38,363 bases of DNA, taken from contig BPTM01000115.1 in assembly GCA_023705945.1 (NCBI GenBank), positions 1 through 38,363 of the forward strand. Reading direction: 5' to 3'. Positions 1-38,363 of the stretch are shown here, one piece after another. Each line of letters begins with the position of its first letter. Within the stretch, counting starts at the first letter, position 1. The notes beneath the pieces were generated by a model. It was not told the origin of the DNA. It made no database searches and saw only the letters and a program-made list of their open reading frames with translations. The position numbers were made by a program, and so were the translations under genes. The stretch comes from Candidatus Heimdallarchaeota archaeon. Lineage in GTDB: Archaea > Asgardarchaeota > Heimdallarchaeia > Heimdallarchaeales > Heimdallarchaeaceae.

Positions 1-536
1 GCATCGAGAAAATAGGTTTCATGATAGAATTCCTCATAGTCAGTTAAACCATCATCATCGCTATCAGAATCATAAGGATCAGTACCGTCTGCAATCTCCT
101 GCTTGTCTAGTAAACCATCGTTGTCTGTGTCTGGGTCAAGGTAATCAGTGTTATAGACACTTGTTTCGTCCCCATTTCCTATTCCATCCCCATCAGTATC
201 AATTGCACCATCTGCAGGATCTAGCGGATCATAGCCATGTGCTACTTCCCAGCCATCAGTTAATCCGTCATAATCTGTATCTGGTCTGCGGGGGTTCGTT
301 CCATAGGTGTTTACTTCTTCTCCATCATTAATGCCATCATCATCCGTATCGCTCTTAACAGGATTTGTTCTGCTTTGAAACTCTTCAAGATTAGTTAAGC
401 CATCGTTATCGGGGTCATTAGCAGCGTCATTAATATGTGGATCGAGGTAAAAACCTCTCGTGAAGTGTGCAAATTCCCATCCATCTGGCATTCCATCACC
501 ATCAGAATCAGGGTCACCAGAGTATAGTTTATACAC
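1..536 (-). CDS. Thrombospondin type-3 repeat (calcium-binding) protein, partial; C-terminus runs off the window, N-terminus unclear
   Basis: Reverse-strand translation by hand: ...YSGDPDSDGDGMPDGWEFAHF...NDPDNDGLTNLEEFQ...SDTDDDGINDGEEV...DTDYDGLTDGWEV...DTDGDGIGNGDE...DPDTDNDGLLDKQE...DSDSDDDGLTDYEEF. Repeated DxDxDG loops. Frame stays open upstream to about 677 with no ATG; 536 is a possible GTG start. Confidence 0.75.
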   Translation of the reverse strand, partial: MYKLYSGDPDSDGDGMPDGWEFAHFTRGFYLDPHINDAANDPDNDGLTNLEEFQSRTNPVKSDTDDDGINDGEEVNTYGTNPRRPDTDYDGLTDGWEVAHGYDPLDPADGAIDTDGDGIGNGDETSVYNTDYLDPDTDNDGLLDKQEIADGTDPYDSDSDDDGLTDYEEFYHETYFLD

Positions 537-600
537 TTTTTCTTTTATCTTTTCTATAAGATTATGTTTTTTATTCAATAACGATTTTTCTTGTAAATGC

Positions 601-669
601 TTCCTAGTTTGGTAGGATGCGTGCTTGGGGTGCACGTGGTCGCGAGTTCGAATCTTGTCTCGGTCACCA
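601..669 (+). tRNA. tRNA-Pro(GGG), 3' portion with encoded CCA; 5' acceptor strand not found (truncated, split or att-site copy)
   Basis: D-arm TCC-TAGTTTGGTA-GGA; anticodon arm CGTGC-TTGGGGT-GCACG (anticodon GGG at 627-629); T-arm GCGAG-TTCGAAT-CTTGT; 3' acceptor CTCGGTC then ACCA. No GACCGAG-like 5' strand directly upstream. Confidence 0.6.
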
Positions 670-2028
670 TCTTCTTTTTACCACTACTTTTTTTCTCAAA
701 ACCTTGTTTACTAATACTATCATTATTAATGTTACAGAAATTATAACAGGATAAGAAGCACTTGTTGATGCAGTATAAATCTCTCGTTGATTCTCTATTA
801 CACTCCAGTTCTTGCTCGCAAGAGCTACTAAACCATATAAGCAGGATTGACAAGTGATGTCTTCCTCACCAACTTTCTCAATAAAACCTTTATTCATCGA
901 AAAGCTTTCTGTAATTTTATTTTGCACTTCAATACCTACATTTCCAAGATTCATCAAATAAGAAACCAAAGTAAAAAGAGCTTGGTTTTTGATATAAACT
1001 TCCTCGTCAGAAGCATTAATGGCATGAACAAACCATTCATCATCCACAAAATCGTTTATTATTTGTTGATGAACATTGTAGCTACTTTTCTCAAAATTGG
1101 TGTATAATCTTTCTGCTTTGGATAAAGCAACTGTAAAAAATATTAGATCTTCAACTTCCGCATAATTTCTGCTTTCGTTTATTGAGTGATCATATTCTTG
1201 ATAAAGGATATTAGTTGTAGAATTAAAGAAAAGTTCTGATACGGAGTCTAATAAGCCTTGGATTAAGCTTTCAAAATGATATCCAGATACCCAGATATTC
1301 CCTGTTAGTAGTTTGTAAGTGGCAAGTACCCAGATTGCCATTGCTTGATCTATTAAGTAGCTCGAGTTACTAAATGGTTGAATAATTAGCCATTTTTCAT
1401 TGAACAAATAGGAATCAAGAGTTTTTAAAAGAACATTCTGTATCATAGCAGAACTAATGATATCTGAACTTGCTTCTAGAATAAACTTGCTTTGAAGTAA
1501 TGCATAGAGCCCAAAAAATTGATAGAAAATTGGCAATGGTTCACTTCGATTTTCATAAGTAATAAACGTATCATTCTCCAATGTATTAATAATTTGAGAA
1601 ATTTTGGTTTGAAAATCTTCTTGATCATGCTCAAATCCTGCTTGAGCAATTAAAGCATATGTTAGAGAGGAGAGGATGAGTAGCTCAGATGATGAGGTTT
1701 GCATGGTTTCATTAATAATTGGTAATCCAGTATTGTCGGTAAAATTAGTGAGTATCAGATTGATTGTTGTATCAACATGTTCTTGCATAGGATCTCTAAT
1801 TATCGGGTCAGGTCTGAGGAAGACAACAGGTAGAACTATAGATAATATGAGCATAAGTGATATGATAATCACTAGAAACATATTTTCTTTCAACAGAAAA
1901 CGGAACTTTCTTTTTACTCCTTTACCACTCTTTAATCTTGCTAGATTTTTCTGAGATTCTTTTAAGTACTCCCGTGCTTTTTTAATCTCAGTTGAAGAGT
2001 CATCAATTTCTTGTTTTTTCATTTTCAA
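664..2028 (-). CDS. Membrane-anchored protein with N-terminal coiled coil/TM, extracellular helical domain and C-terminal TM
   Basis: 454-aa ORF; TM segments NMFLVIIISLMLILSIVLPVVF and SYPVIISVTLIMIVLVNKVL; many Asn glycosylation-like sites between. Stop codon overlaps the tRNA 3' end. Confidence 0.75.
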   Translation of the reverse strand: MKMKKQEIDDSSTEIKKAREYLKESQKNLARLKSGKGVKRKFRFLLKENMFLVIIISLMLILSIVLPVVFLRPDPIIRDPMQEHVDTTINLILTNFTDNTGLPIINETMQTSSSELLILSSLTYALIAQAGFEHDQEDFQTKISQIINTLENDTFITYENRSEPLPIFYQFFGLYALLQSKFILEASSDIISSAMIQNVLLKTLDSYLFNEKWLIIQPFSNSSYLIDQAMAIWVLATYKLLTGNIWVSGYHFESLIQGLLDSVSELFFNSTTNILYQEYDHSINESRNYAEVEDLIFFTVALSKAERLYTNFEKSSYNVHQQIINDFVDDEWFVHAINASDEEVYIKNQALFTLVSYLMNLGNVGIEVQNKITESFSMNKGFIEKVGEEDITCQSCLYGLVALASKNWSVIENQREIYTASTSASYPVIISVTLIMIVLVNKVLRKKVVVKRRW

Positions 2029-2031
2029 CCT

Positions 2032-2802
2032 TCATTCTATTAGTTCTATTATATCTTTAAGCGAATTTAGGAACTCTTCTTGTGGTTGTTCTTCAAATGC
2101 ATGAATTCTTTCACTTAATATATTAAAGTAAGGTACTTCAACTACTTCACTAAATTTGTCTTTACCTATCTTTTTTAATTTTGCAAGATTTTCTTCAAAG
2201 ATTTCTTTGTCGGCTTCAACACCTTCTTCTTCTATCTTATTTATTATGAGAATCATTTTAGTTTCTTCTTGTAGCACATTGTAAATATTACTGCATAATT
2301 CTGCTATACCGAGAACATTTGAGGTACTAGGAGTAGCAATAAGTAATATCACATCAGAAATCATCATTGCATCTATTGAGCGGTAAAAGAATCCTGGAAT
2401 TGTATCAATGAGCATAAAATCATAATTCGTCTCAATATTTTTCTGCAAATTGAACATTTTTGCTAAATATTTTGCATCATCACGAGACAATTTATCTCGT
2501 TGTTTTGAGTGTTGTTTCAAGAATTCCATAGATGAGAATATCAAATCTAGATTAGCTTTTTCATCTATCTTACATGGAAAGATTATCTCTCCCAAAGTTT
2601 TTTCTTCAAGCAGATACTGAGATAAGAAGGATTGTTTTGTCATTTTGAAATATGACTGAAATGATGGAGCTCTAAGATCATAATCCAATGCTAAAACTTT
2701 TTTTTCTTGTTTTGCTAATATGCCTGCAATGTTCAATAGAAATGTGGTTTTACCAGTTCCCCCCTTATAACTATGTACACATACTGTTCTCATTCTAAGC
2801 AC
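2032..2802 (-). CDS. MinD/ParA-family ATPase
   Basis: Deviant Walker A 'YKGGTGKTTFLLNIAG', 'VLALDYDLRAPS', 'FMLIDTIPGF'. Confidence 0.92.
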   Translation of the reverse strand: MLRMRTVCVHSYKGGTGKTTFLLNIAGILAKQEKKVLALDYDLRAPSFQSYFKMTKQSFLSQYLLEEKTLGEIIFPCKIDEKANLDLIFSSMEFLKQHSKQRDKLSRDDAKYLAKMFNLQKNIETNYDFMLIDTIPGFFYRSIDAMMISDVILLIATPSTSNVLGIAELCSNIYNVLQEETKMILIINKIEEEGVEADKEIFEENLAKLKKIGKDKFSEVVEVPYFNILSERIHAFEEQPQEEFLNSLKDIIELIE

Positions 2803-3145
2803 TTTCTCCTAAGAAGTATTTAACTTCTGTTCCTTTCCATTCATCTTCAGAATTAGAGACTGGAACTCTTTTGCTTTGTAAAACACCGATATCTTTCAAT
2901 CTCCTAAGATATCGCGATTCTAAATTATGAGATCTTCCTGTAACTTCAGCAATCTCTGAACAAGTAGCTTCTTCAAGTGATTGAACTGTAAAATAGGTTT
3001 GTAAATGAGATTTAGGTATTTTCATTAGCAGATCTAGAGATGACATTGGTGCTGTTTCAATAGACAATTTTGCTTCTATACTCATTAGTCGGTTGTTCAT
3101 TTTTTCTAGTAATTCAACCATTTTTTTCAAGTATTTTTCTTCCAT
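2795..3145 (-). CDS. Winged-helix/HTH domain protein with N-terminal coiled coil
   Basis: 116-aa ORF; 'EEATCSEIAEVTGRSHNLESRYLRRLKDIGVLQSKRV' has wHTH character; overlaps the MinD-like ORF start. Confidence 0.7.
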   Translation of the reverse strand: MEEKYLKKMVELLEKMNNRLMSIEAKLSIETAPMSSLDLLMKIPKSHLQTYFTVQSLEEATCSEIAEVTGRSHNLESRYLRRLKDIGVLQSKRVPVSNSEDEWKGTEVKYFLGESA

Positions 3146-3165
3146 TAATTATGCATATAACTTAC

Positions 3166-3273
3166 TGCAATATAAATATTTCTACATATTGTGACATATT
3201 GATATATAATAAGTATACAAATTTAAAACGAAAAGTTTAAATAGTTTGCAATATAATGATATATTGATATAAT
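3166..3273. promoter_or_regulatory. Divergent intergenic region with repeated candidate operator motifs and TATA-like element
   Basis: TGCAATATA at 3166-3174 and 3247-3255; ACATATTG at 3184; ACATATTGATATATA at 3194-3208; ATATATTGATATAATA near 3258-3274; TTTAAATA TATA-like box at about 3236. Confidence 0.45.
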
Positions 3274-5391
3274 ATGAAGATGAATAGAAAAAACATTGTG
3301 ATTTTAGTTTTGGTGCTTGGTAGTTTATTATTTTCAAGCATTCAAGTTAATGGAATACAGGAGTCTGCGAACGTTGTTATTCAGACCTCTGAAGAAGAAA
3401 CAAACATTTTACATAGTGTAACAGTTGAGATGGTAACTGACCTGCCCTCACATAGAGAAGACAAGATTCCTAGCATTTTACCTGATGGAATGTTTATAGC
3501 TCAGTTCAATGTGACAAACTTATCAAATATCAATTTGAATTCTCTTGAGCTTTCTATTTCTACTAATGAGTATGGATTCATCATGAACCCAATTATTTCT
3601 GCAACCGGTAGTTTAGCTCGGAACGAATCTTGGTTATCTGAAGGATACATTATCGATCTCATATCGCCCAGTACAGTTGTGTCAAAACCACTAGATTTAG
3701 CGATAATACTCGATCAATCGGGTTCAATGGGAGATGAAATTTCTGTACTTACTGACGATTTAGTTGGAGTTATAAATCAAATTAGTGCTAATGTTCCTGA
3801 TTTACAAACTGGTTTAATACTCTTTGGAGGTTCTTCTTCCAATCCGTATAATGATGAATCACTTGTAACTCCTCTAACTGAGGATATATCCACCATAGTA
3901 GAAGTTCTCAGTAATACAGAAGCTGGTGGCAGTCATGAGCCTTGGGGAGACGCTCTATGGGTTGCTCAGAACAGATTAGATTGGAGAGAAGATTCAGTCA
4001 AATTAATAGTTCTTATTACTGATGAGCCTTGTGATGGAGGAAATGTTATTGGTTATGGTGGAACAGAGGACTATGATGGGGAGCTTCTTTACGAATTATT
4101 TGCGAGTTTGAAATCTCAAGGATTTATCTTATGTACAGTTGCTGCAAGTGGTGCAGATGCATTAACACTTAAACAATTAGAAATTGCAGCGGAAACAACA
4201 GCTGGAACCTATATAGTTCTTGGTGGAGACGGTCCTCAAACTAGTGATCTCCCAGACATTATTGGAGAATTAGTCGTTAAATATGCTGTAGAGTTAAACC
4301 TTAGGATTGATGTATCTCTAAGCCATCTTAATCACGATTACATTAGAGAGTATAGAGAATTAACTTTTGTCGTACTGATAGATGATCTACCTCCAGAAAT
4401 TGATACTTGGGAATATTTCAGTGAGGATTTCTTCAATGATGATAAGATTGTTAATGTTTTATTTGAAATTAAAGATGTAACCGGAGTACCATTTGTCGAG
4501 ATATATTACCAATTCAATAATGTTAGTTTCTGGACAACCACTAGTGCGACTCACATAGACGAGGGTTCATATCTATTATCTTTAGTTTTTACAGAATCTG
4601 AAGACTATCTATATTACCAAGTTTATACAGAGGATTGGTTGGGTAATGATGTTCTCTCGGAAGTTTATACCATTGATTTACGACTTGCAGAAGAGAATTC
4701 AAGGTTATATGTGGGTAAGAAGAGAGAGCTTGTATTAGTACCATACCAACAGATCACCTTTAAGCTAATAGGAGCAGAAGAGGAAGGAGTAAAGGGTCCT
4801 GAAGAAAATTCCACAGCAATAATTTTCTCTGAAACTAACGTGGGATTCGATATTATTGCAGCAGATATAGATGAATCAACCATTATAGTTGATCAGGACA
4901 ATTGTACAATTGCAAGTTTCAATATTGAACCTGAACATACAGTAAAAGTGTCATTTATCTCATCGGAATTCGTTGAAATTCATGTAGTAAATGTACTCAG
5001 GGAGACCTTAGAATTTGCACAAGAAATAAACAAATATCTCGGAGTTGAAGATGTTTTTCTATATGAATTAGACAATAGAATGCATGAAACTAGAGAACGG
5101 AGTATAGTTGCAGATTCTCAGCTAGTTCAGACAAGTATTCTAGTTTTTGATGCTGAGACATGGGAACTTCTTATCAAAGGTAGCTCAGAGGTCGTTTTAC
5201 CAAATATCACATGTTACGTATTAATCTTTGCAACTTATCACACAGGAGATGTCTTTATCACCTTTACATATGATGACCTCTATGACCCTTGGGGGCATTA
5301 TTATTCAGGGGTCGCTGCATATTGGCCATTCTTTGCAGCAATACTAGGAATTGCCAGTATAGTCATTCTAAGAAAAAAACAGAAAAAGTGA
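3274..5391 (+). CDS. Secreted/membrane-anchored von Willebrand factor A (VWA) domain protein
   Basis: N-terminal signal-like helix; MIDAS 'DLAIILDQSGSMGDE', 'LIVLITDEPCDGG'; C-terminal TM 'YWPFFAAILGIASIVILRKKQKK'. Confidence 0.9.
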   Translation: MKMNRKNIVILVLVLGSLLFSSIQVNGIQESANVVIQTSEEETNILHSVTVEMVTDLPSHREDKIPSILPDGMFIAQFNVTNLSNINLNSLELSISTNEYGFIMNPIISATGSLARNESWLSEGYIIDLISPSTVVSKPLDLAIILDQSGSMGDEISVLTDDLVGVINQISANVPDLQTGLILFGGSSSNPYNDESLVTPLTEDISTIVEVLSNTEAGGSHEPWGDALWVAQNRLDWREDSVKLIVLITDEPCDGGNVIGYGGTEDYDGELLYELFASLKSQGFILCTVAASGADALTLKQLEIAAETTAGTYIVLGGDGPQTSDLPDIIGELVVKYAVELNLRIDVSLSHLNHDYIREYRELTFVVLIDDLPPEIDTWEYFSEDFFNDDKIVNVLFEIKDVTGVPFVEIYYQFNNVSFWTTTSATHIDEGSYLLSLVFTESEDYLYYQVYTEDWLGNDVLSEVYTIDLRLAEENSRLYVGKKRELVLVPYQQITFKLIGAEEEGVKGPEENSTAIIFSETNVGFDIIAADIDESTIIVDQDNCTIASFNIEPEHTVKVSFISSEFVEIHVVNVLRETLEFAQEINKYLGVEDVFLYELDNRMHETRERSIVADSQLVQTSILVFDAETWELLIKGSSEVVLPNITCYVLIFATYHTGDVFITFTYDDLYDPWGHYYSGVAAYWPFFAAILGIASIVILRKKQKK

Positions 5392-34347: not shown

Positions 34348-34710
34348 TTGAAAGGATCTTATCTTCTTTACATAAAAATCATAAAATCAGTTGAAATTAC
34401 AATAAGGGGAAAATCATCCCTACTAAATACAGGTTATTACATTTATATTGGTAGTGCTTTTGGTGCCGGTGGTTTGTCTTCTAGATTACATCGACACCTC
34501 AGAAAAATTAAGAAAAAACATTGGCATATTGATCAAATTACAACAAGCAAATTTTCAGAAATAATTGGAATAGGAGTGTTACTCAAACAGAGTGTAGAGT
34601 GTGAGTTATCCAAAATAATCGGTGACATAGGAAAAGTGGTTCCAATAACAGGATTTGGTAATAGTGATTGTGAGAATAAATGTATAAGCCATTTCTTCAG
34701 AGTCAGTTAA
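34348..34710 (+). CDS. DUF123/GIY-YIG-like nuclease domain protein (TTG start)
   Basis: 'GSYLLYIKI', 'NTGYYIYIGSAFGAGGLSSRLHRHLRKIKKKHWHIDQIT'. Confidence 0.88.
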   Translation: MKGSYLLYIKIIKSVEITIRGKSSLLNTGYYIYIGSAFGAGGLSSRLHRHLRKIKKKHWHIDQITTSKFSEIIGIGVLLKQSVECELSKIIGDIGKVVPITGFGNSDCENKCISHFFRVS

Positions 34711-35843
34711 AACAGTAAATGTCTGTTGCCTATATTCACATTTTTCAGGTATTTTGATGCAACTTTGTAGCATTTTTCAGCCAAATCTAAGGAAGTAAGA
34801 GGGAGGTCAGAAAACTCAAACTGTGGATAGAAACCAAGTAATGAATAAGGAATATTTTCATTAATTGAGGAAATGAAAGAAGCTATATTTTCTACTTCTA
34901 CTTCATCTACATAACCGGGAACTAGAAGAGTTGTTGCATTCAAGATTGGTAAATCTGGTCTTAGATCAAAGAACTTCCTTCCTACATATCCAAAATTTTC
35001 CAATACGACTTCATTCTTCACTCCTGTTAAGGCTTGATGAATGTTTGAATCCCATGCTTTTAAATCAAATTTAATATTTCCACCCGACTTCAAGGAAATT
35101 GCAGCAGCTTTTTTGACATATTGCCTATTCCCAAAACCATTCCATTCCCAACAGATTCTAGCTATTCTATTTTCAGTTTCAGCAATTTCAAGTATTTGTT
35201 CAGAAACGTTTATTGCATAGGGAAACTGAGGTTCTGGCGATCCACCAAAGAAACAGATGCAATTAATTCTGGGATTGTTTTGAAATTGCTGAACTAGTTG
35301 GGATGCTGATACTTTAGTACCATCAGTAATTCTCTTATGATTATGATTCTGGCAAAAAAGACAATCAAAAGAACATCCATAGAAGAATATAGATAGATTG
35401 TAAAAACCTAGTTCTTTAGTTTGGCTGGAAGCATATTCAGGATAGCCAGCCCCAGTACCAGCAGGACAAAACCAAGCTGCACAACAATTACAAGGAAGTG
35501 GATCAAGATAATAGTGAAGCAACCCAATTTCTTTTGTAGAATATGCAGAAATCTTAGCATCATTATTTCTAAATCTCAAACCACAATAACTTGTTTCATT
35601 CTCATCTAATCCACAATTATGATTGCATAAAGAACAACTTATTTTATCACTATCAGGAGCAGTTAAAGGAAGATTATAGTGGGATCTAGCCTTTTTATGT
35701 GCATTTATTATTAGCTCTGCAACTTTCGTAGACCCTTCCCTCAAACAATCTTTACAAACAGATAAAATACTGGCTACTAATTTCTCTTCATTGCAAATAA
35801 AACACTTCTTCACAGATTCTTCTTGAGATGGAATGAAAATCAT
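34707..35843 (-). CDS. Radical SAM protein, PflA/AmmeMemoRadiSam-like
   Basis: 'FYGCSFDCLFCQNHNHK' CxxxCxxC; N-terminal CxxC pairs 'CFICNEEK...CKDC' and 'CSLCNHNC...YCGLR'. Confidence 0.9.
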   Translation of the reverse strand: MIFIPSQEESVKKCFICNEEKLVASILSVCKDCLREGSTKVAELIINAHKKARSHYNLPLTAPDSDKISCSLCNHNCGLDENETSYCGLRFRNNDAKISAYSTKEIGLLHYYLDPLPCNCCAAWFCPAGTGAGYPEYASSQTKELGFYNLSIFFYGCSFDCLFCQNHNHKRITDGTKVSASQLVQQFQNNPRINCICFFGGSPEPQFPYAINVSEQILEIAETENRIARICWEWNGFGNRQYVKKAAAISLKSGGNIKFDLKAWDSNIHQALTGVKNEVVLENFGYVGRKFFDLRPDLPILNATTLLVPGYVDEVEVENIASFISSINENIPYSLLGFYPQFEFSDLPLTSLDLAEKCYKVASKYLKNVNIGNRHLLF

Positions 35844-35946
35844 TATTATAACATAAGTATTCTATCTTGTTAATGTTGTGCTTAACTTTTTTCTTATTTC
35901 TTGCTCTTCCTCTGAAATAAAGTTTATTTACTAAATAGTTTAATCA

Positions 35947-36369
35947 ATGAACATGGCACTTGAAGAACCAATTAGAACTATAGTTGTTATAGCTATCAAC
36001 TTTGTTCTTTTTTACATAGCTTCTGCAATATTATGTGGGATTATGTTTAGAAGAGATTCAAAACGATGGACTTGGTTGAATATCATTATGGCGGCTCTTA
36101 TATCAGTTGCATGGGTATTTGGTTGGGGCTATCTTGCAGGACTTGGATCAGCCACAGTTATTACATTTGGACTTATTATTTTCTTCCTATGTTGGATAGT
36201 ATGGGTAACCATAGGAGGAGTTGGTGATAAAAGCGCAGTTTATGCAACCCTAGGAACCTTAATCTTATGGTTCTTACTATGTTGGGTTTTCATGGTGATA
36301 ATGAATCTAACAAACGTTACAGAATTCAATGTTACAGATTTTCCAACTTTGCTAGACTGGCTTCCATAA
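35947..36369 (+). CDS. Small four-TM membrane protein
   Basis: 140 aa, about four hydrophobic helices. Confidence 0.75.
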   Translation: MNMALEEPIRTIVVIAINFVLFYIASAILCGIMFRRDSKRWTWLNIIMAALISVAWVFGWGYLAGLGSATVITFGLIIFFLCWIVWVTIGGVGDKSAVYATLGTLILWFLLCWVFMVIMNLTNVTEFNVTDFPTLLDWLP

Positions 36370-37734
36370 TCAAATCATTTCAAATAATTGTGCAAAGCTA
36401 TCAAAATTCAAATTATAGTTTAATCTATACTTTTTCTTCTTTTTTTCAATATAGCGTTTCAATAATCCTGGATATATCTTTGTTAATCGAAGTACAAGAA
36501 AACTAGCTGCTTTGAAAAACACAAAGTTTACTGAACATTCATAAGAAATTGCAAGGTTTCTAATACTTAATTTTTCCTTATTAATCCAATCCAGACATGG
36601 TCCCCCACAATAATAGCGTATTGAGCATTTAGAACATTTTTCAATTGAATTAACAGAAAATTGTAACTTATCTGATACTGCAAAGGAGTCATTAAGAAAT
36701 TCAAGTTCATATTCGTCATATCCAATTAAACCTGAACATGGATAATACCTCTGTTTATTATCAATAGCGAGAGCTGTTCTTGAAGCTGGGCACCTGATTG
36801 TCTTTTTTTCTCGCATTATGATTCTGTCAAAATATCTGAGGAAATAATCAGAAGGCCCTATCGATGGTAGAAAGTCAAGAATTTCTTCTTCGGTTAAACA
36901 AAGTATATTTTCAGTAAATTTCTCAAGCTCTTGGGTAAACCTTGTTAAATTTCTTTTTTTCCATGAAAACAATGCTTCTTTTTGAACTCTTACTGGTCTT
37001 AAAGATACTTCATTGAATAGTTTAAGGTGATTTCTGTAAATGTTAAATAAGTCCTTATTTAAAGCGTGAATTGGGATAATGCAATGTTTAATTACTGTAT
37101 TTTTGAATAAAGTGATGTTCTTTTTTACAAGTTCAATCTGGTTCATGTTTGATAGGTCTATAGAAACGTTAAGATAGCCATAGTCATTAACAAAATCCAC
37201 AAGTTCTTGAGGAGGATCAACAAGATTTGTTGAAGGCATAAAAAGATGTATCGGAAATTTGTATTTGTTTCTATTTTGCTCCACCATTCTATGAATTCGA
37301 AGAAACTCATTAAAATAGAGTGATATTTCACCGGTATAATAAAATGAGAAGTTAATCGGAAGGATTGAACCATTCTTTCTTTTTGTTTCAAGAAAAGTGT
37401 TCATTATATTTGAAACAACTTCTGTAGATAGAACCTCCTGCTCAATTTCCCTCTTTTGTTTGGAATAACAATACCAACAAGAAAGATTGCATTTTGATGA
37501 AGGATTAATTACAATATAATTGATCTCGAAAATTTCTTTAGTTTTTGTCTTTATTTCTTCTTCATTTTTTGATGTAAAAAAACCTCGAACTTTCAATTTC
37601 TGGATTTGCTTCATAATTTTATTTTTGTTTTTGTAATCTATATTCCAAAGCATTTGGTGATAAGAATCTAATAAAAAGTAGGAACCATTAAAACTAAAAA
37701 AATATTCGCCATGCATTGAATCAGACATTGTCAT
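36370..37734 (-). CDS. Radical SAM/SPASM peptide-maturase-like enzyme
   Basis: 'INPSSKCNLSCWYCYSKQKR' CxxxCxxC; C-terminal SPASM-type Cys set 'CPAS...YYPCSG...CSKCSIRYYCGGPC...C'. ATG at 37734 overlaps the upstream TGA (TGATG); the track begins at an alternative TTG, 37740. Confidence 0.85.
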   Translation of the reverse strand: MTMSDSMHGEYFFSFNGSYFLLDSYHQMLWNIDYKNKNKIMKQIQKLKVRGFFTSKNEEEIKTKTKEIFEINYIVINPSSKCNLSCWYCYSKQKREIEQEVLSTEVVSNIMNTFLETKRKNGSILPINFSFYYTGEISLYFNEFLRIHRMVEQNRNKYKFPIHLFMPSTNLVDPPQELVDFVNDYGYLNVSIDLSNMNQIELVKKNITLFKNTVIKHCIIPIHALNKDLFNIYRNHLKLFNEVSLRPVRVQKEALFSWKKRNLTRFTQELEKFTENILCLTEEEILDFLPSIGPSDYFLRYFDRIIMREKKTIRCPASRTALAIDNKQRYYPCSGLIGYDEYELEFLNDSFAVSDKLQFSVNSIEKCSKCSIRYYCGGPCLDWINKEKLSIRNLAISYECSVNFVFFKAASFLVLRLTKIYPGLLKRYIEKKKKKYRLNYNLNFDSFAQLFEMI

Positions 37735-37976
37735 CAACAAACTGATTCAGTTTCTACTCTTCCTTCTTCGTCTTGAAGGAAAACAGCTACCTTATCTAAT
37801 GCAGCATCTTTTGAGATAAATTTTCCGATAATTTTGTTTTTCCTTGTATTTTTAACTACCCACCAATCATTTTCAAGATATATCTCGTAATCACCACATT
37901 TTTCTGCATTACTCATACTGCTCAAATTAGATGAAATTGCAGTGTTTAAATTATTTTTCCTTACACTCATTTTCAA
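37734..37976 (-). CDS. 80-aa small protein, candidate RiPP precursor or radical SAM partner
   Basis: '...SMSNAEKCGDYEIYLENDWWVVKNTRKNKIIGKFISKDAALDKVAVFLQDEEGRVETESVC'; terminal Cys; stop overlaps radical SAM start. Confidence 0.7.
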   Translation of the reverse strand: MKMSVRKNNLNTAISSNLSSMSNAEKCGDYEIYLENDWWVVKNTRKNKIIGKFISKDAALDKVAVFLQDEEGRVETESVC

Positions 37977-38035: not shown

Positions 38036-38363
38036 ATGTCTCAAAGAAGCTTCAAAGTATCATTATGTGGGGAACCAGGAGTAGGAAAAACTTCCATAGC
38101 TCTTCGTCAAGCGCAAAACTCTTTTCCTATTACTCATCAACCTACTTTAGGAGCTAATTTTCTTATATGGAATACAACTATTGAAGGCGAAGAAATCAGA
38201 CTCATTATTGGTGATTCTGGTTCTCAAGAACGTTTTTACTCTGTTCTCCCAACGTATTTTCAAGGATCAGCAGCTGCAGTATTGATTTTTGACATTACAA
38301 ATAAGGAGAGCTTTGAGAAACTTACTTTTTGGTTAGAAAAACTTGAGGAAGGTGTCGGTAAAA
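38036..38363 (+). CDS. Ras/Rab-like small GTPase, partial (3' end outside window)
   Basis: Hand translation: 'MSQRSFKVSLCGEPGVGKTSIALRQAQNSFPITHQPTLGANFLIWNTTIEGEEIRLIIGDSGSQERFYSVLPTYFQGSAAAVLIFDITNKESFEKLTFWLEKLEEGVGK'. Confidence 0.93.
   Translation, partial: MSQRSFKVSLCGEPGVGKTSIALRQAQNSFPITHQPTLGANFLIWNTTIEGEEIRLIIGDSGSQERFYSVLPTYFQGSAAAVLIFDITNKESFEKLTFWLEKLEEGVGK

Follow-up and report, generated by a model that had tools for sequence, protein, structure and literature searches.

A contig of the Asgard family Heimdallarchaeaceae carries two abutting genes on its minus strand at 36370-37916, a small open reading frame (ORF) and, after it, an ORF encoding a radical SAM/SPASM enzyme. The window, that is the whole stretch of DNA analysed, is this entire contig (G000:C115, 38,363 nucleotides), from a genome of 3.0 Mb that is 79% complete. 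A mechanical ORF listing gave the small ORF as 37734-37976 (80 codons, with TTG as the first) and placed the radical SAM/SPASM ORF at 36370-37740. Comparison with relatives shortens both at their N-termini, and the features of the locus become:

37734..37916, minus strand: small substrate-like protein of 60 aa, MSNAEKCGDYEIYLENDWWVVKNTRKNKIIGKFISKDAALDKVAVFLQDEEGRVETESVC (starts and stops in relatives, purifying selection, predicted fold)
36370..37728, minus strand: radical SAM/SPASM maturase of 452 aa, with its ATG 5 nt past the stop of the small gene (Pfam and NCBIfam matches, alignment, model)
37917..37976, minus strand: stretch earlier taken as the N-terminus of the small protein, probably promoter or 5' region (stops in relatives; DNA conserved)

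The first-pass annotation had described an 80-aa small protein. N-termini were compared among five close relatives, window included, and in two of the five the first 18-20 codons of the long ORF contain in-frame stops (TAA in L027, TAG in L030). These codons were rejected as coding, which leaves a protein of 60 aa starting at the methionine at 37916; the DNA ahead of it is conserved even though its frame is broken by stops, as a promoter or 5' region probably would be. In 20 of 21 genomes the maturase starts with ATG (once GTG) exactly 5 nt past the small stop; only in L013/L084 do the readings overlap instead. A TGATG overlap at the junction had been taken to imply translational coupling. The motif is present and coupling is likely, judging from the sequence, but it would operate through the fixed 5-nt gap: the overlap itself is unused because its ATG runs straight into a stop codon in L065 and L069 (TGATGTA(G/A)ATG), and as a maturase start this ATG is not conserved. 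Selenocysteine insertion or read-through at the TGA after Cys60 was also discarded, since L084 has a TAG and the codons beyond are not conserved. The L084 copy, from Ca. Heimdallarchaeum endolithica (L084:6001-6207), has in addition a longer acidic linker and the tail ETGSVC.

Distribution and gene order

The pair is adjacent and complete in 21 of the 23 family genomes and occurs once per genome; counted separately, 21 genomes have the enzyme and 22 the small protein. The G003 contig breaks off within the small gene, beside its GTPase neighbour. In G014, a search with the adjacent GTPase at E ≤ 1e-30 came back empty, and one with the neighbourhood's second radical SAM enzyme gave only paralogues of 26-37% identity; as the flanking genes likewise lack close orthologues there, we treat the absence of the pair as missing data. 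No assembled Heimdallarchaeaceae locus lacks either gene. The conservation of the small ORF beside the maturase, proposed at first pass as a check, was thus borne out in every family genome that has the locus. The relatives that bear a name are Candidatus Heimdallarchaeota, among them Ca. Heimdallarchaeum endolithica PR6. Neither gene was found in 205 other Asgard genomes, and with a more relaxed threshold two related families gave nothing or SPASM-only matches.

Selection on the two genes was estimated from pairs with usable divergence, as close pairs differ at too few sites for a reliable value. Between near relatives dN/dS is mostly ~0.05-0.22 for the small ORF and ~0.19-0.27 for the maturase. 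The pairing is not due to chance, because the two genes co-occur in 21-22 of 23 family genomes and the small ORF is under such purifying selection. The small protein is 50-90% identical where the maturase is 31-47% identical; at the level of sequence, the putative substrate is more conserved and changes more slowly than its enzyme.

Gene order around the pair is also conserved, from an enolase-like gene through a TPR gene. On one side, a Ras-like small GTPase (38036-38362 in the window) is divergent from the small gene, adjoins it in most genomes and was not seen beside it in L084. On the other, a 140-aa membrane protein with no Pfam match (35947-36369) lies tail-to-tail with the maturase and was not seen intact in L072, L076 and L081; it is followed by a syntenic second radical SAM enzyme (34707-35843) with an extra Cys-rich N-terminal part and a weak likeness, at best 2.2e-13 and below cut-off, to AmmeMemoRadiSam and glycyl-radical activases. 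That unrelated genes keep their order as well might mean that the small gene and the maturase are two independent neighbours, held together by general synteny between the enolase-like and the TPR gene. We consider this very improbable, given the spacing fixed in 20 of 21 genomes and the fact that, among the immediate neighbours, only these two genes are co-directional and abutting. The pair moreover persists in L084 without the adjacent GTPase, and it does so in L072 and L081 beside a reduced or missing membrane gene and second radical SAM gene on the downstream side. A viral or mobile origin was rejected on the basis of the conserved chromosomal synteny, a search for viral relatives of the small protein that found none, and a phage-record match to the enzyme at only 21% identity. 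Pfam searches of the ~12-kb conserved neighbourhood found no peptidase or transporter; these could be encoded elsewhere, and the tail may be either released or kept attached.

In the window, DNA identity to L065, L066 and L068 falls from ~90% to ~57% right at the small stop codon and recovers near 35940, past the membrane gene, which delimits a further feature:

35940..37736, no strand assigned: replaced tract of ~1.8 kb, comprising the maturase and the convergent membrane gene (drop in DNA identity to L065, L066 and L068)

Within the tract, identity to these three loci is ~57% over the maturase and ~73% over the membrane gene, compared to ~90% on both sides. The window maturase is 45-47% identical to theirs, with saturated synonymous sites, and falls outside L065-L069 in the tree; the GTPase, the second radical SAM enzyme, the TPR protein, a 299-aa protein and the small protein are 83-94% identical. 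We read this as a replacement of the maturase and its neighbour, which would have occurred by recombination with a diverged lineage and left the small gene in place. An assembly chimera is still conceivable instead, yet both flanks belong to the same species cluster. L069 (positions 1-3970) may carry a second such replacement. Identity to L065/L066/L068 and the window is 88-90% for its second radical SAM enzyme, 72-80% for its small protein, 67-72% for its membrane protein and 43-59% for its maturase (56-59% when compared to L065/L066/L068).

The small protein and its tail

AF2 predicts four strands in the small protein (residues 4-7, 10-15, 18-23 and 28-33) followed by one helix (36-49), while residues 52-60 are disordered (pLDDT 44 over residues 51-60). 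No PDB match was obtained for this fold at E ≤ 0.001 with Foldseek, and profile searches gave no match to Nif11 or other leaders. A small DUF2188-type fold had been suggested: with a threshold of E ≤ 5 the Pfam model matched five of the 21 members, the best with E 0.0049, and left the window member without a match, so that the likeness is faint, and the predicted topology is beta-beta-beta-beta-alpha with a disordered tail. The C-terminal Cys and the ENDWWVVKN stretch noticed earlier are both read in the translation. Residues C7, G8, Y13, W19, GKF31-33, A39, A44, Q48, E55, S58 and C60 are invariant, and the last three of them lie in one short element:

37737..37754, minus strand: C-terminal hexapeptide E-[ST]-E-S-[VT]-C, codons 55-60 (best-conserved stretch, predicted disordered; proposed modification site)

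Conservation per residue was calculated over 16 non-redundant sequences. Mean pair identity is 0.86 in the tail (55-60), 0.62 in the fold and 0.47 in the acidic linker, and the hexapeptide is the best six-residue window of the protein. The first-pass annotation had envisaged a conserved leader and a variable core; alignment of the C-termini gave the reverse, the C-terminal hexapeptide being the most conserved part. A disordered tail that outconserves the fold is what is expected of a tail that reacts or is bound, and the opposite of a variable core. A diversifying natural-product precursor was rejected for the same invariance of the tail.

The tail offers an invariant Cys beside an invariant Glu and an invariant Ser. 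However, the small protein has only two Cys, C7 and C60, and does not show the regular Cys-rich C-X(n)-D/E/T spacing of ranthipeptides. A CX3[DE] motif is seen at C7 (CGDYE), not strictly (CGDYI and CGDYV in L082 and L083), and is absent at C60. That one of two Cys is the very last residue, unlike in Cys-rich ranthipeptide precursors, counts at the sequence level against the explanation that we prefer below.

The maturase and the proposed modification

The enzyme shows the following elements, of which the two cluster-binding regions had already been noted at first pass:

37468..37491, minus strand: CNLSCWYC radical SAM [4Fe-4S] motif, residues 80-87 (alignment; Pfam Radical_SAM)
36535..36792, minus strand: SPASM region C313-C398, with seven invariant Cys and a CX2CX5CX3C core (alignment; TIGR04085)
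37588..37707, minus strand: N-terminal beta-beta-beta-alpha domain, residues 8-47, at the place of the RRE of CteB/QhpD (AF2 model)

A 19-row alignment upheld both regions, as C80, C84 and C87 of the CxxxCxxC motif and the seven SPASM cysteines (C313, C331, C365, C368, C374, C378 and C398) are invariant. All 19 maturases match Pfam PF04055 (E to 1.6e-8), and the window member scores 31.9 bits with TIGR04085 (cut-off 27). All 19 also match the SCIFF, Nif11-peptide, PapB, QhpD and CbpB maturase models, with best E values of 2.6e-27 for SCIFF, 2.9e-26 for Nif11, 1.4e-25 for PapB and 7.8e-22 for QhpD, and a profile match to CteB was found at 7e-24. The window maturase nevertheless lies under every NCBIfam subfamily cut-off (SCIFF 51.8/425, PapB 59.7/340, QhpD 41.6/453 and Nif11 68.8/518.7 bits), and since all subfamily scores are far below the equivalog cut-offs, the reaction cannot be read off the family. 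In the AF2 model (pLDDT 80, pTM 0.84), Foldseek placed CteB first (E 1.3e-13, TM 0.69/0.70), followed by TigE, anSME and ChlB. Grouping with the anaerobic sulfatase maturases, which would have spoken against a peptide maturase, was not observed: peptide maturases match best (2.6e-27 compared to 1.8e-7), and assignment as a sulfatase maturase was rejected from 24 bits with TIGR03942 (cut-off 349) and a fold E of 4.3e-9 compared to 1.3e-13 for CteB.

The N-terminus of the model consists of strands 8-13, 16-21 and 26-30 and helix 35-47. Its position and topology fit an RRE; there is no PqqD sequence match, and the longer N-terminus of L072 has no PDB match. Maturases of the L072-L080 type have ~24 extra residues between strand 3 and the last helix, which would fit a full RRE in that type and a trimmed one in the clade of the window. 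This domain bears on whether the small protein could be a partner or chaperone, i.e. a stand-alone protein for recognition or scaffolding through which the enzyme receives another substrate or an electron donor. Such a role would suit a folded domain, a single copy, very strong conservation over the whole length and weak DUF2188-like matches. We find it quite improbable, because the enzyme has its own domain in the RRE position, the predicted fold of the small protein is not a winged helix and an invariant disordered Cys tail is typical of a reacting or binding tail and not of a scaffold; neither was another conserved small Cys ORF found among the listed neighbouring ORFs (at least 58 aa). Taking all substrate explanations together, co-conservation, spacing, enzyme class and the tail make it very probable, at the level of sequence, that the small protein is the substrate.

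The explanation towards which we lean, as slightly on the probable side, is a Heimdallarchaeaceae-specific operon in which a 60-aa substrate and its maturase make a Cys60 thioether in the tail, giving a fixed, non-diversifying product. The small gene and then the maturase would be translated in turn by re-initiation over the fixed 5-nt gap. The domain of four strands and one helix would serve as a folded, leader-like recognition part bound, in a putative contact, by the N-terminal domain and the core of the enzyme, and the flexible acidic tail would thereby be presented to the maturase active site. The maturase would abstract a hydrogen from a carbon, in the side chain or the backbone, of E55, E57 or S58, which are invariant or nearly so, and the Cys60 thiol would be joined there as a thioether, as in SCIFF, PapB and QhpD. 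The enzymes of these systems form S-C-beta or S-C-gamma links between Cys and Asp, Glu or Thr (PMC8326336). If the small protein is a substrate, a site in the tail is likely and, by analogy with these enzymes, a thioether would be fairly likely as well. The product would be a fixed cellular functional group or peptide (cofactor-, signal- or QhpC-like) and not a diversifying antimicrobial, given a tail that is invariant throughout the family and a substrate that changes more slowly than its enzyme.

The chemistry could also be different: the C-terminal Cys might be oxidised or decarboxylated (mycofactocin-like), Trp or Tyr might receive a C-C bond, or the change might be of the formylglycine type. 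An invariant Cys as last residue is unusual for a cross-link donor, W19 and Y13 are invariant, and weak matches to cyclophane and sulfatase maturases were seen; W19 and Y13 nevertheless look like fold-core residues, and the nearest families by both score and fold are thioether makers, which makes this alternative improbable. We also think it unlikely that the small protein is modified in its folded domain, with Cys7 linked to D9, E11 or an adjacent strand, and persists in one piece as a mature protein or subunit, like QhpC in quinohemoprotein amine dehydrogenase, the tail being a docking or sorting signal. C7-G8 is invariant and D9 and E11 are nearly so, giving C-X1-D and C-X3-E spacings, of which the second is also that of PapB substrates; QhpD belongs to the nearest families, and no peptidase lies nearby. 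However, E11 is replaced by I or V in L082 and L083 and D9 by N or E in L079 and L076, and a tail more conserved than the fold is hard to square with a mere signal. Beyond the preferred Cys60 thioether, a wider and rather doubtful conjecture is a protein-derived cofactor or signal of a new kind, shared throughout Heimdallarchaeaceae: a folded carrier of ~50 residues would present the fixed E-x-E-S-V-C tail, a SPASM enzyme would convert the terminal Cys, and lineages could exchange the enzyme gene without any change in the carrier.

Significance and comparison with known systems

Before a study of 2025, the only functionally characterised archaeal RiPPs were two haloarchaeal lanthipeptides, and Asgard clusters are so far predictions only (PMC12144867). 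Among archaea, Asgard included, genome mining has found clusters of the ranthipeptide and sactipeptide types (PMC12144867), and biosynthetic clusters have been reported from cold-seep Asgardarchaeota (PMC12016038). No description of the present pair was found in the literature searched. Its presence in every assembled family member, together with a substrate more constrained than the enzyme, argues for a cellular role and not for warfare, as proposed for SCIFF, and points to an uncharacterised, functionally constrained peptide modification. The host family lies near the eukaryote lineage and belongs to the Asgard archaea, the group from which eukaryotes are thought to have come. With a substrate of 60 residues, a hexapeptide as candidate site and short genes, product and site are directly testable by co-expression and mass spectrometry.

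Among known systems, the anaerobic sulfatase maturase (anSME, TIGR03942, PDB 4k37) shares the radical SAM and SPASM fold (E 4.3e-9) but matches the window enzyme much more weakly, at 24 bits. PapB (NF047865), a ranthipeptide maturase which we take to be that of freyrasin, is similar over the radical SAM/SPASM residues 77-380, and its Cys-acidic side-chain logic may apply here; unlike in that system, the single Cys of the tail follows the acids and there is no repeated CX3D, and the enzyme reaches 59.7 of 340 bits. Maturases of Nif11-like peptides act on substrates made up of a leader domain and a C-terminal core. Their model (TIGR04064) is the best NCBIfam match of the window enzyme (3.6e-19) and their substrate layout resembles that of the small protein, but the score is 68.8 compared to 518.7 bits and no Nif11 or other leader is matched.

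The closest fold is that of the SCIFF maturase CteB (PDB 5wgg, 5why; TIGR03974; TM 0.70), which has an N-terminal domain in the RRE position, a radical SAM domain and a two-cluster SPASM. As with CteB and its precursor CteA, a small gene lies beside the maturase and the pair is near-universal in one lineage; the near-universality of SCIFF in Clostridia has been taken as an argument against an antimicrobial role (PMC8326336). Unlike SCIFF, the window enzyme scores 52 compared to 425 bits, and where CteA has 6 Cys, the putative precursor has 2, a folded domain and an invariant C-terminal Cys. QhpD, of quinohemoprotein amine dehydrogenase maturation (TIGR03906), differs in its score (41.6 compared to 453 bits) and in its amine dehydrogenase subunits, which are absent from the window neighbourhood. 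All 19 members match it, however, and its protein substrate with Cys-Asp/Glu thioethers comes closest to the idea of a non-diversifying product.
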